From the IMG/VR virus record IMGVR_UViG_3300046808_000057, positions 1-29,796 of that record: a DNA stretch of 29,796 bases. The stretch is one strand, 5' to 3'. The position numbers and the translations under genes were made by a program. Under the pieces are notes generated by a model. The model was not told the origin of the DNA, searched no databases, and saw only the letters and a list, made by a program, of their open reading frames with translations. The DNA is from a virus. Positions 146 to 29,796 of this stretch are shown one piece after another (position 1 is the stretch's first letter; each line of letters starts with the position of its first letter).

Positions 146-1951
146 GGTGGGGCTACCAGTCGGGCTACCCGTTGGCGTTGGTGACACAGTGAAGCCAGTG
201 GTGGTGGGGCTACTGGTGGGAGTTGGAGACGATGTTGCTGTAACTGTAGTATCGAGACCGCCAATACCAGCAACAGCCTCACCAACCTTAGTGCCTGCCG
301 TCTGATCGGCCTTGTCACCCGTCACCGTCAATGCGTTTGACAGCAAGTTTTTGTAGAAGCTGTCATTAGTAACAAACCTTGCGCCGCCTTCACCATATTG
401 ATTGCGAGCGTTAACGATAAGCGCGTCCATCGCGTTTTTCGCGGCGGTCAGACCAGCCGCTGATTTGCCAGTAACATTCAGATCCTCTTGAATGTCGGCA
501 ATTTGATCCGACAGCGTGTTGCGTACACCTTCATCCAATTGACCGCCAATGTCTGCATAGGGCTCTGCTGTGGTGTCAGTTTTTGTTTGCGTGCCGGAAG
601 ATACCGCCGCACCGACAAATGAAGCAAAATCCTTAGCCACTCGGTCAGCGGCCCATTTGCCAATTTCGTTACCATACTCTTTGCCGGCGTTAACGACAAT
701 TTCATCAAGGTCAAATTTGGCGAGCATGCTGCGCGTTGCTGGGTCAGTAACGTTCTCATACAGCGCTAGTTTATCACCGATCTGCTCACTAATGATGTCC
801 CGAGCTTCTTTAGCTGCCAGTTCTTTTTGTTTTGCAATCTCCTCAGCAACCTCCGTACTAACATATTGAGCCGCGCCACTTATAAGGCCGTTTACAAATG
901 AATCCTTGATATCGTTGCCAAGGACTAAGCTGCCGGCTGTAGTACCAATCCCACCGCCAATTGAAGCGCCTACATTTGTTGCAACTTCACCAGCCCCTTT
1001 AACCGATTCAATCACAGGACCGAGAACCGTAGAGCCGAGCGTAGTGAATGCTCCAGTGACAGCGCCTTCAAGTGGATCGCCACCAAGCGCTGCGCTTGTA
1101 ATGCCGCCACGCAACGCACCCATGCCGACTTGTGCTAAGAGGGTTGAGCTTGCCTGCGTCAACCCTGCGGCTGCCGCCTGAGTCGCTGCAATGTTACTAA
1201 TCGCAGCTACGTTTGCGGCGGTGCTTGATGCAAGAGATGACGCCGAAACCAAGCTACTAGTTGTGGAGCCAGCGGCAGCGCCGGCCCCAGCGGCAGCCGC
1301 AGTTTGAGCAGTCGCTGCAGCAAGCCCAGCACCAGCCATTGCCATGATACCGGCAGCCTGCACCAGCATACTTACGTCATTGACAAAGCCGGTCTTCTTG
1401 TTGGTGTAAACATCCGAGTAGCCAGAGGTCATGTTCCCCTTGCCGTCAGAGTAAGAGCCGTACTCCTGCAGCGCCCAGTTAGCGTTGCCGCCCATCTTCT
1501 CTGAGATGGCATTGGCCGCTTCAGCTAGGCCCTTGGCTTCTGCCGCATTGGTTGCGGTGCCAATGACTTCGCCTGTGTTGTTATCAAGCAGCCGATACGT
1601 CTTTCCCGGGACGGGGACGAAGTTGTAGTTCTCGTATTCCTGATCGCCCTTGATGTTGAACACCGGGGCATAGTCATACGACTGCGGAATCAGGCCGAGA
1701 CGGCCCATGATCTGAGCATTCGTACCGGGGATCAGGTCATAATAACTGGGATCAAATAAGGCTACGTACTTATCAGACAAGCCGGTCGCCTGCGCTGCGG
1801 TAAGCCCGCGCGCCATAGCATCTTCATATGCTTTTTGATTGGCCTGATAGGTCTTCTGATACTCAGTGATGTCAAACGCCAACAGCTCAGCGATGTCAGC
1901 TTCAGAAAGTCCGGCAGCCCTCAGCTCATCAATATCATAGCCTTCTGCCAT
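1..1951 (-). CDS. Large Ala/Gly-rich protein with Thr/Pro tandem repeats, partial (C-terminus outside window)
   Basis: My own reverse-strand translation from the ATG at 1951 stays open for 650 codons to the window edge, so the stop lies outside. GGGG about 7 nt upstream of the ATG serves as a plausible ribosome binding site. The first ~190 residues are mixed and partly acidic, beginning MAEGYDIDELRAAGLSEADI. Residues ~190-330 are Ala/Gly-rich and hydrophobic with many small-residue pairs, as in membrane-active or glycine-zipper proteins. A charged helical part follows to ~560. The tail is Thr/Pro/Ser-rich with a 17-residue tandem repeat (PTPTGFTLSPTPTVTET). It lies just downstream of the tail-hub gene. 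By position and composition it could be an internal (ejected) protein or a tail-tip protein; I do not recognise the family. The reading frame is certain, the function is not. Confidence 0.8.
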   Translation of the reverse strand, partial: MAEGYDIDELRAAGLSEADIAELLAFDITEYQKTYQANQKAYEDAMARGLTAAQATGLSDKYVALFDPSYYDLIPGTNAQIMGRLGLIPQSYDYAPVFNIKGDQEYENYNFVPVPGKTYRLLDNNTGEVIGTATNAAEAKGLAEAANAISEKMGGNANWALQEYGSYSDGKGNMTSGYSDVYTNKKTGFVNDVSMLVQAAGIMAMAGAGLAAATAQTAAAAGAGAAAGSTTSSLVSASSLASSTAANVAAISNIAATQAAAAGLTQASSTLLAQVGMGALRGGITSAALGGDPLEGAVTGAFTTLGSTVLGPVIESVKGAGEVATNVGASIGGGIGTTAGSLVLGNDIKDSFVNGLISGAAQYVSTEVAEEIAKQKELAAKEARDIISEQIGDKLALYENVTDPATRSMLAKFDLDEIVVNAGKEYGNEIGKWAADRVAKDFASFVGAAVSSGTQTKTDTTAEPYADIGGQLDEGVRNTLSDQIADIQEDLNVTGKSAAGLTAAKNAMDALIVNARNQYGEGGARFVTNDSFYKNLLSNALTVTGDKADQTAGTKVGEAVAGIGGLDTTVTATSSPTPTSSPTTTGFTVSPTPTGSPTGSPTTTGFTLSPTPTVTETPTPTGFTLSPTPTVTETPTPTGFTLSPTPTVTE

Positions 1952-7536: not shown

Positions 7537-7902
7537 TCACTTAAGGTTTCTAAGTTTATAGATGGCTGACAGGTAGACCCCTGTCAAAGTATCAATGAGA
7601 TTCGCCACTGCGCGGTTTCCCTTGCAGATGCCCTCATGATTCTTTTCAATCCATTCCGCGTCTGCCTCGAGACATTTAAGGCAATCCGTCGGGCAATCCT
7701 TCGGAGCCGGAATGGCACCGATCAGATCGAAAGCGCCCTGATACGCTTCCACCAATGGATCAATCGCGTCGATAACGCCGTCATAGAATTCCCCCAAGGC
7801 CATGTGCTTGGCAAAGCTGCCTTCACCTTTAGCACGCCAATGGGAGAAATGCGCTAGGTTGCGGGCATAGAAGACCCGGGAGATGAGCTGCTCGATCATC
7901 AT
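7537..7902 (-). CDS. Dps/ferritin-like four-helix protein (DUF5856-like)
   Basis: A 121-aa helical protein. Counting from MMIEQ, H21-W22 begins a segment whose residues fall at Dps ferroxidase spacing: H21, H33 (+12), D48 (+27) and E52 (+31). E. coli Dps has H51, H63, D78 and E82 in the same register, and both share HW, a Gly, and a Phe three residues before the second His. The Dps Asp at +16 is Gly37 here, with Glu38 next to it. Three cysteines lie further on (C70, C74, C77 region). Dps proteins oxidise Fe(II) with peroxide and bind DNA. The length is shorter than Dps (~167 aa). The start overlaps the fibre stop as ATGA. It sits between a fibre and the lysis genes. The fold is likely; iron chemistry is inference. 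Confidence 0.7.
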   Translation of the reverse strand: MMIEQLISRVFYARNLAHFSHWRAKGEGSFAKHMALGEFYDGVIDAIDPLVEAYQGAFDLIGAIPAPKDCPTDCLKCLEADAEWIEKNHEGICKGNRAVANLIDTLTGVYLSAIYKLRNLK

Positions 7903-8618
7903 GCAATCCTTTGCGCTACGATAATCGCAGAGGCGATTGATGGCCGCGCATACGGAACCACCTGAGCAGCAGTGTATGCCAGCGAAACTGTCGCACTATC
8001 TACAGCGCAAACGACTTCGATGTAATTAGTAGCAGAGACCTGAACAACGCCCTGAACTTGGAAGAACATAGACCCGCCATCCGCGAGCTTTGGCACGCTT
8101 GTTTCGCTGGCGGAATACGCGATGTCAGTACCATTCAAACGGAACCAGATGTCGCCGACGTGGTCTGAAGTATCTGAGTTTTCAAACTGGCAATGGAACG
8201 CGATCTCATAAGTTCCAGCAGCCGCGAAAGTAACCCGAGTCGGATTGCCACTACCGTCGTTCTCAATGGTGATGCCAGTCTCAATGCCTGCGACATCAAA
8301 CTCAATAGTGGCTGGAGTGTTCGCAGAAAACGTAACGTCTGCAGAATTGTAAGCAATGCAGTGAGCGCGCCCAGCTATGTCGTTATAAGGAATCGTGGCG
8401 CTCGCCGTCATTGCCGACGTGCCATTGCCCTTGACGTAGCCAGTGAGTGTAGAAGCGCCCGTGCCGCCAGTTGGTACGGTGCGGACGTTCGTGGCAGTGG
8501 CCGCGATGTCAGAGGCCGCAACCTTACGGCTATTCGTGCTCTGAACGATTTCGAGAAGTTCAGTACCGGCCAGAGGTGTAGTGGCTGGCGCTAAGTCTGT
8601 GATCTTTACGTTTGCCAA
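7899..8618 (-). CDS. Short tail fibre/receptor-binding protein (TTG start)
   Basis: The start is a TTG at 8618 with GGAGG five bases upstream. It is confirmed by resemblance of its N-terminus (MANVKITDLAPA...SDIA) to that of the 1358-aa fibre (MSDIKISDMQPW...LSQL), a probable virion-anchor segment. A GGTG module follows at ~residues 50-60. Then comes a ~150-residue beta-rich C-terminal domain with alternating hydrophobics (TIEFDVAGIETGITIENDGSG, YEIAFHCQFEN), compatible with a TNF/C1q-like jelly roll. It lies next to other adhesins and likely contributes to receptor binding. The specific receptor cannot be told. Confidence 0.75.
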   Translation of the reverse strand: MANVKITDLAPATTPLAGTELLEIVQSTNSRKVAASDIAATATNVRTVPTGGTGASTLTGYVKGNGTSAMTASATIPYNDIAGRAHCIAYNSADVTFSANTPATIEFDVAGIETGITIENDGSGNPTRVTFAAAGTYEIAFHCQFENSDTSDHVGDIWFRLNGTDIAYSASETSVPKLADGGSMFFQVQGVVQVSATNYIEVVCAVDSATVSLAYTAAQVVPYARPSIASAIIVAQRIA

Positions 8619-25833: not shown

Positions 25834-27372
25834 TCAGTAAAATGCAGCTTGCTCAAGTGGCGTATCGTAAACCTCTTCATATGGGTCTTCCGTATTCGCC
25901 ACCCAGCCCGACTGCTTAATCCGCAAAAACGCCATTGTCATGGTGTCAACCCAGTCCCGTGCATCCGCAGCAGGAAAGGCAACGCATTGCTGCATGAACT
26001 CTTCCGCCCATTTACGCAACTGCTGAAATGTGGGGCCAGCCGCCGGCAGCCACACCCTGCCGTTCTCAATCAAGTCCGTAATCAAACGAACACGCGCAAT
26101 CTTGTCACCATGCTTGTCGGGATTGAACGGCGTCGCCACAATCCCAGCCTTAGCCAAGTCTAATATCAGCATCTGGCCGTTCGCCTTGGCCTCAACCAAG
26201 ATCGTGTCCGGCTTGCGCCCCCGAGAGGGCTTGATCGGCATCTTGTAGTTGTCGTCCCGGTAGTCATTCGCCATGCGCTGGACCATCCGACGCAGCACCG
26301 GCCACTCCGCACGGTCACGCCACGCACTCAGCAAGATCAAATTAGGAATGCCGTTATCGTCGTCAAACACTCCCCACGTCGTGCTCGCGCTGTACGCAGA
26401 AGTCTTATTCGCCGTGAGCGCCGTGTCCCAAGACTGTATAACATACTGGATCTTCGGCGGCTCAGACTGACGCCACCACTTAAACCATGTGCCGTCAATG
26501 ATACCACCAGAGTCCACCACAGGGTTCTGCTGGTACAAAGATGACCACATACGCGCCGTTGTCGACGAACGATTGCGGATCCTCTCGAGGTTTTCCTTGC
26601 TGAACTGCGACTCCCAGAGCGCCTCCCCCGGCTTTCTCCCCAGAGGATCGTCCTCCAGAGCCAGCGCCGGCAGGATCACACGCTCCCACTTCTCACCAGT
26701 CCCGTCGCGCTCCTCCTGATCCAGCATCCCAAAGTGGTCACCCAAGTGCCACCTCGTCCCAATCAGAATGATAGCCGTGTCGTCGTCCACACGCCGCGTG
26801 TAAAAGTCACTGTTGTACCAAGCCCACAGCTTGCGCCTGTGCGAGTCGCTCTCTGCCGCTTCAATACCGGAGAGCAAGTCGTCCCCAATCAGCAAATGAC
26901 CACGACGACCCGTCACAGACGCGCCAACCGCCGTCGCCTTGTACGACCCATCAGACAGCGTCATCCACTCGCCCGCCGCCGTCTTATCCAGCGAAATACC
27001 CGCCTCAGGAAATACCTTCCGGTGCTCGTCCGACTTCATCAGATTGCGCACCTTCAAACCGAAACTGTCCGACAGCTCCTGCGTGTGCGTCGCGCAAATC
27101 AGGTTCTTCTTCCCGTATTTGCTCAAATACCACGCCGGAAAGTGCTGCGATGCCGTGAAGCTCTTCGCATGCCCCGGTGGCATCGATATCATCAGGCGCT
27201 TAATCCGCCCCTCAGCTACCGCCTCCAGCTTCTCACACAAATGCTCAATGTGCTTCGGCGGCTTCAAACCACTCACATACTCAATGTACTTCGCCAAAGA
27301 GTCCACCGCCTCCTCACGAGCCAGCAACTCCTCCATCATCGCCTTCAGGTTGTCAGGATCAGCCTCAGCCAT
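25834..27372 (-). CDS. terL: Terminase large subunit (ATPase/nuclease)
   Basis: I choose the ATG at 27372; a TTG three bases upstream would add one residue. The 512-aa protein shows Walker A MPPGHAKS (64-71), Walker B LLIGDD (160-165) and the coupling motif GTRWH (205-209). The C-terminal RNase H-like nuclease has acidic residues D316 (SWDTA), E394 (LVEAKANG) and D473/D476 (DARDWVD). It packages and cuts DNA at the portal. It overlaps the 82-aa gene by 8 bases. All key residues are present, so it should be active. Confidence 0.96.
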   Translation of the reverse strand: MAEADPDNLKAMMEELLAREEAVDSLAKYIEYVSGLKPPKHIEHLCEKLEAVAEGRIKRLMISMPPGHAKSFTASQHFPAWYLSKYGKKNLICATHTQELSDSFGLKVRNLMKSDEHRKVFPEAGISLDKTAAGEWMTLSDGSYKATAVGASVTGRRGHLLIGDDLLSGIEAAESDSHRRKLWAWYNSDFYTRRVDDDTAIILIGTRWHLGDHFGMLDQEERDGTGEKWERVILPALALEDDPLGRKPGEALWESQFSKENLERIRNRSSTTARMWSSLYQQNPVVDSGGIIDGTWFKWWRQSEPPKIQYVIQSWDTALTANKTSAYSASTTWGVFDDDNGIPNLILLSAWRDRAEWPVLRRMVQRMANDYRDDNYKMPIKPSRGRKPDTILVEAKANGQMLILDLAKAGIVATPFNPDKHGDKIARVRLITDLIENGRVWLPAAGPTFQQLRKWAEEFMQQCVAFPAADARDWVDTMTMAFLRIKQSGWVANTEDPYEEVYDTPLEQAAFY

Positions 27373-27613
27373 CAAACTCTACACCATCCAGCCACGCATC
27401 CACCAACTCGTGCACCTTCTGACGGTTCTTCACCCACGCAGGTACCTCACCCACCGGCCCGTCAAACACCTTAATCCGCGTCTCGTCCGTCAACCACGCA
27501 CGAAAGTCATCACCCTTCGTCAGCGTCAGCGCCACCTCATCACCATCCGAACGCAGCGGCAAACTCCCCTTGCCCGTCAAAAACCCCATCATAAACCCAA
27601 TACTATACCGCAT
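27365..27613 (-). CDS. Hypothetical 82-aa protein between terminase subunits
   Basis: A small protein starting MRYSIGFMMGFLTGKGSLPL, with a short hydrophobic N-terminus followed by charged sequence (LTLTKGDDFRAWLTDETRIKVF) ending acidic. The start lies 1 base after the small-terminase stop, with GGAGG overlapping it. The end overlaps the large terminase. A coupled gene of this size between the subunits may regulate packaging, but no motif supports a specific role. Confidence 0.75.
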   Translation of the reverse strand: MRYSIGFMMGFLTGKGSLPLRSDGDEVALTLTKGDDFRAWLTDETRIKVFDGPVGEVPAWVKNRQKVHELVDAWLDGVEFDG

Positions 27614-28157: not shown

Positions 28158-28305
28158 TCTAGTCTCCGGTTGTCAATATAGGTAAACCCACATCGACGGT
28201 GAGCGACGCCGCTCCAATAGATAGAAAGAGGGGATCTCCATCCACCGACATCAGCGCCGCTCCACCAGAACATATCGTGGATCAGGCCTGAATGTAAAGA
28301 GGAGG

Positions 28306-28329
28306 TAATCGTTACACTAATCGTTACAC
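28306..28329. repeat. Tandem 12-bp repeat TAATCGTTACAC x2
   Basis: Two perfect head-to-tail copies lie at 28306-28317 and 28318-28329. They contain the GTTACA core of the boxes at the right end of the window. Placement ~150 bases upstream of the terminase start suits a regulator-binding site. Confidence 0.9.
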
Positions 28330-28553
28330 CGTATCGATTTCAAAAACGAAAATAAAACACCCCCCGGGTCAGTCTAAAAATCAGGGGGTGGGGGTCTGTG
28401 TGGCGGGGTGGAAATTTCTGGCCGCAAACACGGATCAATGGGGGTGTATACTGTGGGGGATCGCGCCCGCCCGCGCGCGAGTGGGTGGGTGGGGGTGCGC
28501 GCAGGCGCCCGGGGGCACGCTTGGGCATGACGCGCCCGTGACGTGATCACGCG

Positions 28554-28571
28554 GTCAACCGGATGGTTGAC
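28554..28571. promoter_or_regulatory. Operator-like inverted repeat (GTCAACC-ggat-GGTTGAC)
   Basis: Perfect 7-bp arms separated by 4 bases (28554-28560 and 28565-28571). The core GTCAAC/GTTGAC also forms the inverted repeats at 28744 and 29646, though in the opposite arm order here. A binding protein is inferred. Confidence 0.5.
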
Positions 28572-28743
28572 ATCCGCAGGGACGCGCGCGCCTGCACGCT
28601 TGCACGTCATGACGCTTGCATCACGAGGCGACTCGGCGTTTTGCTGCACTGCACAATTGTAAAAATCCGCCAGAAAAATCATCGGCCCAGCGCCCCGAAC
28701 GGCGACCCTAACCCTACGGGTTACAAAAAAAGTTTTCGAAAGG

Positions 28744-28762
28744 TGTTGACCGCCGCTCAACA
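28744..28762. promoter_or_regulatory. Operator-like inverted repeat on a predicted promoter (TGTTGA-n7-TCAACA)
   Basis: TGTTGA (28744-28749) and TCAACA (28757-28762) are exact inverted arms that cover the -35 box of the predicted plus-strand promoter. Binding here would block transcription. It relates to the sites at 28554 and 29646. Confidence 0.5.
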
Positions 28763-28774
28763 ATCGGCTGTTAT
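28746..28774 (+). promoter_or_regulatory. Predicted promoter of the plus-strand unit
   Basis: TTGACC (28746-28751) and TGTTAT (28769-28774) are separated by 17 bases, the optimum for a sigma-70-type promoter. It faces the only plus-strand gene. The transcript would begin near 28781 and run to the terminator at 29448-29480. Confidence 0.6.
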
Positions 28775-28780
28775 TAAGGG

Positions 28781-29238
28781 GTCGAGACGGCAAGGTCAGT
28801 CGCTTCCGATTTATCAGACAGCCCGAGTGGCGACATGAAACGGAACCGCACAACCCGTCAGGACATAGTCCTCGCTGTGACGGCGAGATGGAATGCAAGG
28901 TTTCATATACGACAGCTAAAGCTGGACGCTGTCATCATAGCCCCTCTGATCGGGGCTTCCAGCCCATCACTAGTGGACGGAACCATCATTACGCCACCCC
29001 TTTGGGGAAGGAGCGGGTGAGAAGGCCAAAGCTGGTTTGTGGTGGATTACTTCGTAGTGGCCCTACGAAGTAGGGGGGCGCTTGGCAAATCAACAGCGGA
29101 ACGTGTGTTCGAAATCCCCAGCAGTATACAAGGGCTAGGGCAGGGAGGTTCGTGACCTCCTGCCTCCCGAAGGGAGCCTGACCGCTCCTTTCCGGAGGCA
29201 CCGGCATAGGGCCGGTTGCTTTAATGCGGAGCATTATC
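28781..29238 (+). other. Long structured leader (possible non-coding RNA) before the 65-aa gene
   Basis: No ORF with a good ribosome site is visible over ~460 bases. I see perfect or near-perfect stems at 28939-28957 (AGCCCC/GGGGCT), 29048-29072 (10-bp TACTTCGTAG/CTACGAAGTA, 5-base loop), 29140-29163 (9 bp with one bulge), 29164-29176 and 29198-29219 (GCCGG-based). Near 28911-28933, GACAGC can pair with GCTGTC or form a shorter CAGCT/AGCTG hairpin, a switch-like choice. I could not fold any tRNA. Function unknown. Confidence 0.55.
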
Positions 29239-29436
29239 ATGAACGTTGTTCTTCAGATCGAATATACGAAGTATATCGTTGACGCCGCTGATGCCGTGAA
29301 GGTCATGGCAATCCTTAGCGGAGCTACTATCGTCGATCACAATTACGACGACGACGATCAGGCCTACTACAATCCTCGCAAAGCGAACACTGTCATCATG
29401 TCAGTGGAGCCTATTCGGCTCGAGATTCGCGGCTGA
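29239..29436 (+). CDS. Hypothetical 65-aa protein, only plus-strand gene
   Basis: I choose the ATG at 29239 (MNVVLQIEYTKYIVDAAD) because GGAG lies seven bases upstream; an ATG at 29224 lacks such a site. The protein shows alternating strand, helix, strand (IEYTKYIVDAADAVKVMAIL), a DDDD acidic run and a strand at the C-terminus (IMSVEPIRLEIRG). It has no cysteine or membrane segment. It is monocistronic, between a predicted promoter with long leader and a perfect terminator. It may be an early or regulatory protein; no family assigned. Confidence 0.8.
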   Translation: MNVVLQIEYTKYIVDAADAVKVMAILSGATIVDHNYDDDDQAYYNPRKANTVIMSVEPIRLEIRG

Positions 29437-29447
29437 TGAGGCCCGAG

Positions 29448-29480
29448 AAGGGGGTGTAACAAAAGTTTACACCCCTTTTT
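29448..29480 (+). terminator. Rho-independent terminator of the 65-aa gene
   Basis: GGGGTGTAA (29451-29459) pairs perfectly with TTACACCCC (29467-29475) and is followed by TTTTT. The stem starts 14 bases after the stop codon. Flanking A and T bases extend it, so it may also act on the other strand. One arm contains a TGTAACA box. Confidence 0.92.
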
Positions 29481-29602
29481 CCGCAGAAAATCGTCGATTC
29501 CTGCTGCGTTTACACTGAAAGTGTAACAGATGTAACAAAATGTAACGTGGTTTTGTTACGCTAAGAGCCGCAGAAATCCGCCATTTCCTGCTATATGTAA
29601 CA

Positions 29603-29624
29603 ATATCTATAGAAATATAGATAT
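29603..29624. repeat. AT-rich inverted repeat (ATATCTATA-gaaa-TATAGATAT)
   Basis: Perfect 9-bp arms (29603-29611, 29616-29624) around GAAA, followed by more alternating AT to 29631. This is the most easily melted DNA in the window and lies amid the TGTAACA boxes, as a duplex-unwinding element would in an iteron origin. Confidence 0.85.
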
Positions 29625-29645
29625 ATATATAGAGTTACCTATCCC

Positions 29646-29664
29646 TGTTGACAGGAGGTCAACA
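29646..29664. promoter_or_regulatory. Operator-like inverted repeat (TGTTGAC-aggag-GTCAACA)
   Basis: Perfect 7-bp arms with a 5-base spacer. It includes a TTGACA and an AGGAGG in the spacer, but no start codon follows closely. It shares its arms with the site over the promoter at 28744. Confidence 0.6.
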
Positions 29665-29796
29665 TCACATTTCTCTATAGGGCTATATTTCCCGAAATCC
29701 TGTTACATTTGTTACAACGGCGGAAAACTGCGGCTGAGAGCGTAACAATCGTTGTTACACTGCTGTTACATTTGTTACATTTTGGCCGTTTTGTTT

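Follow-up and report, generated by a model that had tools for sequence, protein, structure and literature searches.

A large structured RNA ahead of exchangeable small ORFs in a phage genome, proposed as a new phage RNA family

A small ORF that is preceded by several hundred nucleotides of folded RNA raises the question of which of the two is the conserved product, and whether the RNA serves the ORF behind it or acts by itself. The locus considered here lies in an IMG/VR virus record of 29,796 nt, which was studied at its full length (the window) and to which all coordinates without a prefix refer. The minus-strand genes of the window include those for the large terminase (terL, 25834–27375, phrog_38), the portal (phrog_1216), the major head protein and an endolysin, and the best-listed terL matches in a named-phage collection, 023Pt_psg01 and Pelagibacter phage HTVC027P, are only about 35% identical. 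The unit under study is placed on the opposite strand, beyond the small-terminase (terS) ORF and before a block of TGTAACA/TGTTACA repeats. This block (29480–29796), which also holds a large inverted repeat (29553–29585 with 29716–29748), is found in the same place in relatives and resembles an operator array or a replication origin. The sequence GTGGGTGGGTGGGGG (28480–28500) is present in 34 of 77 loci and stands, where its position was read, at the same site on the far side of terS; it is a possible packaging or regulatory site. The record itself starts with a 51-base tandem repeat (1–144; 2.8 copies, 98% matches).

Positions 28746–29480 form one plus-strand unit with an early-type promoter, a folded RNA of about 460 nt, a 65-aa ORF and an intrinsic terminator, and all four parts that had been claimed in a sequence-only reading of this DNA are present. 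The parts that frame the RNA are the following.

28745–28781, plus strand: early-type promoter, TTGACC (28746–28751), 17-nt spacer, TGTTAT (28769–28774)
28745–28761, plus strand: promoter dyad GTTGA-N7-TCAAC, which covers the −35
29223–29241, plus strand: translation start region AATGCGGAGCATT-ATC-ATG, with the Shine-Dalgarno GGAG inside a small hairpin
29239–29436, plus strand: 65-aa ORF, phrog_4367-like
29447–29480, plus strand: intrinsic terminator, 9 perfect pairs GGGGTGTAA/TTACACCCC (29451–29475), then TTTTT

Relatives of the unit were sought through a terL query, which led to 80 loci. The leader is found in five contigs at 75–81% nucleotide identity, in three versions (L002, identical to L003; L004, identical to L005; and L008), which together with the window make up the close group. 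L010 came from a shared hairpin spotted by eye, and L113 and L121 were added by a motif scan, giving a known set of seven distinct RNA sequences in two groups, all from uncultured phages of environmental samples. A covariance model (R1; 166 positions, 28 pairs) that was built solely from the window, L002, L004 and L008 finds the distant members over 83 sources and 877,304 bases (L113, E 1e-8; L121, 2.4e-5; L010, 1.3e-4), the next-best scores being those of L020 (E 0.26) and L050 (E 8.4); in this run L002, L004 and L012 stood for L003, L005 and L013, to which they are identical around the unit. The two groups are homologous. Beyond them, blastn of 28160–29796 against 50,697 phage records gave 82 records, and the 20 matches listed were taken as chance, being short (about 26–37 nt) and of E 0.5 to 6. 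The motif GCNGNNCGTGTGNNCGAAAT occurs in 51 IMG/VR stretches; those that are leaders come from L113, L121 and the members already known, and the others, including L102 with a pairing hairpin, resemble, by eye, coding or chance matches. A second motif, GNNCGTGTGNNCGAAATNNC, gave 118 stretches, with no new member by eye among the 20 listed with a complementary hairpin, a stricter motif gave 23 stretches in 84,980 GTDB genomes, none leader-like by eye, and two group-specific motifs gave 5 and 3 stretches, from known members only.

The promoter of the unit is nearly identical letter for letter across the close relatives and shares class and layout with early promoters of L002 and L004; GGGG stands near the likely transcription start, and in the L010 group the promoter sequence is TTTTGACACCGCGTCAAAA. 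The terminator stretch (29446–29486, predicted fold −18.0 kcal/mol) recurs in L002 and L004, and in L008 in changed form. Simple scans, for a sigma-70 consensus and for terminators, list neither the promoter nor the terminator. The start region is nearly invariant across the close group, and its hairpin has a probability of 0 to 0.41, depending on the sequence; an in-frame ATG at 29224 would extend the ORF to 70 aa. Purifying selection acts on the 65-aa frame (dN/dS 0.19–0.47, six comparisons over the first 36 codons), and the ORF is, by this measure, a real gene. Between the window and the other close members it is 56–57% identical in nucleotides, versus 75–81% for the leader, and by these figures it is evolving faster than the RNA upstream. 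A profile match to phrog_4367, a PHROG family without known function, covers residues 4–52 (E 3.1e-6). Pfam, NCBIfam and PADLOC gave nothing usable for the protein, tblastn gave no match in the phage collection and six IMG/VR stretches, none of which was confirmed, and the AlphaFold model has a mean pLDDT of only 50.6. In the L008 copy of this ORF (480–693, minus strand) about 45 nt are duplicated in tandem (RVDMVYGYEAEGTAK repeated).

The RNA itself is predicted to be built of the following elements, whose pairs are called double-changed where both partners differ between sequences.

28782–28865, plus strand: RNA 5′ domain, partly conserved (TCAGACAGYCCGAG...), from alignment A2
28871–28887, plus strand: Pa hairpin with loop UGUGACG; double changes in 3 of 5 pairs
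28892–28896, plus strand: 5′ strand of P1, AATGC, with the tentative partner GCATT at 29231–29235 (RNAalifold)
28911–28933, plus strand: P2 hairpin GACAGC/GCTGTC, invariant in the close group
28921–28926 with 28958–28963, plus strand: predicted pseudoknot of the P2 loop (GCTGGA) with TCCAGC, invariant in the close group
28940–28963, plus strand: P3 hairpin GCCCC/GGGGC (28940–28956) and the pseudoknot 3′ strand (28958–28963); one P3 double change
28964–29045, plus strand: P4, CCATCAC/GTGGTGG (28964–28970 with 29039–29045); 4 of 7 pairs double-changed over seven sequences
28971–28973 with 29032–29034, plus strand: P4 extension TAG/CTG; P4 encloses a variable insert
29048–29072, plus strand: P5, perfect 10-bp hairpin; 7 of 10 pairs double-changed, the stem being rewritten in every version
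29074–29119, plus strand: P6-P7-P8 junction, in which GGGGG/TCCCC closes CGC/GCG and the hairpin GAAC-GTGT-GTTC; then GAAAT
29139–29215, plus strand: 3′ hairpins P9 (29139–29164), P10 (29169–29192) and P11 (29201–29215), with 2, 7 and 2 double-changed pairs

Two details that had been noticed from the letters of the window hold: the perfect 10-bp leader stem is TACTTCGTAG/CTACGAAGTA at 29048–29072, and the alternative pairing near 28911–28933 is that of GACAGC/GCTGTC versus AGCT/AGCT inside the same hairpin. Fold energy alone is weak evidence for structure in the leader (z = −1.95 against shuffles, 4 of 100 of which fold equally well), and the decisive evidence is covariation. In an alignment of the four distinct close sequences (A4), with a structure of 14 helices and 82 pairs that includes the pseudoknot and leaves the 5′-domain helices out, 26 of the 82 pairs are double-changed, the mean of shuffles being 10.5 and the count with partners slid by 1–3 columns 2–5. 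In the same alignment 97.5% of 326 cells are paired, versus 35–44% in the slid controls, in which the counted structure is favoured because it was partly derived from this alignment by RNAalifold. For the RNAalifold structure itself, double changes are seen in 35 of 123 pairs. Within the close group, five of the 14 counted helices (P1, P2, the pseudoknot, P4b and P7) are invariant, so that the count there bears on the other nine. A model-fitted alignment of all seven sequences (A9), which leans towards the model, has 13 of 28 pairs double-changed (0–3 in slid versions) and 99.5% of 191 cells paired; the distant group alone (A8, three sequences) has 8 of 68 pairs double-changed (0–2 when slid). 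P6, P7 and P8 show double changes over the seven sequences, with 100% of cells paired. P2 and the pseudoknot, when compared by eye, keep their topology in L010, L121 and L113 with different letters (pseudoknot strands GCTGGA/TCCAGC in the close group versus CTTCCCT/GGGGAAG in the distant one), and both appear to gain support from this between-group comparison. The P9–P11 region shows no letter-for-letter homology in the L010 group, and L004 carries a 60-nt insert at the end of the 5′ domain. The structure is conserved and, as far as aligned sequences tell, the RNA is under selection for it. A lack of covariation in homologous leaders had been named beforehand as the outcome that would count against a functional RNA; covariation is present, and that outcome did not occur.

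The Pa hairpin links the RNA to other transcripts of these phages. Across 883 kb of loci, the heptamer UGUGACG is flanked by four or more Watson-Crick pairs at 10 distinct places. Three of these belong to leaders, namely those of the window, of L002 and of L004. The other seven lie, by eye, in 5′ UTRs (L002, L004, L010 twice, L013, L040 and L058), 3′ of a promoter-like TTGAC or TGACAG and 5′ of a Shine-Dalgarno and ATG. Counted with duplicates there are 12 such hairpins, against an average of 0.5 and at most 8 for 60 permuted versions of the heptamer. The loop is constant and the stems are unrelated, and L008 has UUUGACG in place of UGUGACG. The unit contains both an early-type promoter and this UTR element, and its RNA carries what reads as an early-mRNA signature; the hairpin is likely a candidate binding site for an RNA-binding factor. 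The sequence 3′ of the Pa hairpin (GATGGAATGCAAGGTTTCATA) also resembles an early-gene UTR in L002 (GATAGAAAGGTTTCGCTATG) and may descend from one.

This likeness of the post-Pa sequence to early-gene 5′ UTRs, seen in L002 and L010, could also be read as a sign that the leader is a hidden or decayed coding sequence, a gene or gene remnant and not an RNA, and all four close sequences, by eye, keep one frame open along a part of it. That explanation is very unlikely: the changes show no codon-position bias (for positions mod 3 = 0, 1 and 2, L002 has 11, 7 and 10, L004 has 18, 17 and 21, and L008 has 10, 9 and 11), in L004 and L008 the open frames, by eye, lose register past the insert, and paired double changes predominate.

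The main rival explanation is that of a cis-regulatory leader, an RNA that would set the translation of the next ORF in response to a ligand, a protein or the stage of infection, possibly through GCATT (29231–29235), which would pair either with a local AATGC or with the far-5′ one; taken as a whole, this is a serious possibility, but one to which we give clearly less than even weight. The RNA always stands directly before a small ORF, the start region hardly varies in the close group, the closing helix in the RNAalifold structure spans the start codon, and a competing 3′ hairpin is kept through paired changes in L010 and L113. The closing helix P1 is invariant in the close group, and L010 versus L113 shows a one-sided change; its pairing has a probability of about zero in all four single-sequence folding calculations, made with a model that cannot represent the pseudoknot. 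This speaks against a cis leader, as do the likely Shine-Dalgarno of L010 and L121, which lies outside the hairpin, the plus strand, which matches no riboswitch family, and the exchange of the ORF behind a retained RNA.

Every known copy of the RNA has a small ORF directly after it, and this ORF is exchanged between the groups: in L010 and L121 it is MTRKDYVLIAEAF..., and in L113 it is MAVITRKQREAL..., followed by MTRKDYVLIAD.... The small protein MTRKDYxLIA... recurs in a divergent small-ORF cassette in L024, L029, L034, L047, L060, L076, L015, L010, L113 and L121, and a PHROG search with its L010 copy gave no match at E up to 1; by eye, the first seven of these loci have a short leader followed by several small ORFs, the MTRKDY type included. 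The suggestion that the RNA may act itself with the 65-aa protein as its partner is in part borne out, as covariation indicates selection on the RNA structure; a dedicated partnership with the 65-aa protein is not supported, since other small ORFs follow the RNA in L010/L121 and L113. These other ORFs also weigh on the idea of an RNA-toxin pair or similar, in which the RNA would be an antitoxin-like partner of the small proteins behind it. The order of RNA, small fast-changing ORF and terminator recalls such systems, although the leader has no repeat array, PADLOC matches none of five small proteins, and unrelated ORFs follow homologous RNAs, which leaves this explanation highly improbable.

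The distribution of the RNA bears on a role in packaging. Forty loci reach more than 2.5 kb upstream of terL and 37 entered the R1 search; the RNA is found in four of these (L002, L004, L008 and L010), and at E 0.01 the other 33, some of which may end short, have no match. L012 and L013 (terL 88%, terS 71% identical) cover the site and have no leader, and L010, with terL about 87% identical, carries the RNA; the RNA is gained or lost between close relatives. A terS alignment comprises 17 loci, and the new terS loci L238, L239 and L240 have no model match, the first two having also been read by eye. At 7900–8450 (minus strand) of L011, whose terL is about 82% identical, another long non-coding, structured-looking stretch lies between a promoter and small ORFs, and R1 does not match it. 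Since distant members precede other ORFs and 33 of 37 terminase relatives have no match, the RNA is best described as a swappable module and is unlikely to be bound, as leader or as partner, to the 65-aa protein. The lack of a leader in L012 and L013 despite 88% terL identity speaks for such a module and against the packaging role that had been entertained. That the RNA lies beside the small-terminase gene, both in the window and in close relatives, would suit a packaging RNA or another component of the packaging machinery. Against this, L012 is among the many terminase relatives without a match and the predicted transcription of the unit runs away from the terminase genes; the RNA is almost certainly not of this kind.

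The RNA was also compared with known families. The Rfam search that the sequence-only reading had proposed was run, and no Rfam 15 family, with GOLLD, ROOL and OLE among those covered, matches the RNA; at gathering score there are no matches in the whole window. Under relaxed settings the window region, L113, L008 and L002 gave weak matches far below gathering scores. One of them, to sR28, recurs at 12.5–13 bits (gathering score 39) on the antisense strand, and these matches are not independent because all lie at one homologous place. No group I intron matched in Rfam at E up to 5 or 10, and no riboswitch above gathering score. The RNA resembles riboswitches and long 5′ leaders in being folded, in standing immediately ahead of an ORF and in the pairings that may compete around the start region; it differs from them in that the gene behind it is not constant, the ORF class varying from one copy to another. 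Type III toxin-antitoxin systems combine a tandem-repeat RNA with a ToxN-like toxin; the leader has no repeat array, and PADLOC gave no match for the five small proteins compared. The phi29-type pRNA is a phage RNA encoded near packaging genes, as is this one, which however is not co-inherited with the terminase (four of the 37 terL relatives searched) and has no Rfam match. The put-type antiterminators of HK022 are folded RNAs near the start of a phage transcript and ahead of a terminator; the present RNA is likewise folded and has the same place in its predicted transcript, but it is much larger. In L002 and L010, promoter-like sequences also lie beyond the terminator and the repeats, so that readthrough is not needed there.

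The closest known kind is represented by GOLLD and ROOL, which passages of a published account describe as large, elaborately folded phage or prophage RNAs with pseudoknots, whose function is still open and which are often near tRNA islands (PMC12286853). The present RNA is likewise large, phage-encoded and elaborately folded, with extensive covarying structure and a predicted pseudoknot. It differs from GOLLD and ROOL in being shorter (about 450–500 nt), in having no Rfam 15 match and, as far as those passages go, in lying beside a small ORF and terminase genes instead of near tRNA islands; the window contains no tRNA gene. No report of this RNA was found in the literature searched. The family appears to be new, although GOLLD and ROOL already represent its kind, the large structured phage RNA.

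The reading we favour, with somewhat better than even confidence, is that this unit belongs to a new family of phage RNAs. Its conserved product would be the RNA and not the ORF, and the RNA would act by itself. That the RNA stays while the ORF changes favours this over a cis leader. According to the proposed model, an RNA of about 450–500 nt would be transcribed early, together with one or two small ORFs that lie 3′ of it on the same transcript. It would consist of the 5′ domain, the UGUGACG hairpin, the P2/P3 pseudoknot, the long P4 with its insert and the P6-P7-P8 junction, which would bear the GUGU hairpin and then GAAAU. After early transcription the RNA would most likely function in its own right through a phage or host partner to which it binds, and the small genes downstream would be interchangeable passengers. 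Transcription as drawn, action in trans and the existence of a partner are steps that we infer. More tentatively, and at rather less than even confidence, the family may be a new class of large phage RNA that acts in trans in host takeover, through a host or phage factor or by self-assembly; on this reading it would pass between related phages as a module equipped with the early promoter and the UGUGACG 5′ UTR hairpin of their mRNAs, and the small genes behind it would be exchanged.

Large structured phage RNAs are rarely described. The new family offers a testable core of motif, pseudoknot and junction, and closely related phages differ clearly in having or lacking it; the occurrence of the UGUGACG hairpin on ordinary early mRNAs as well points to a possible shared RNA-binding factor.
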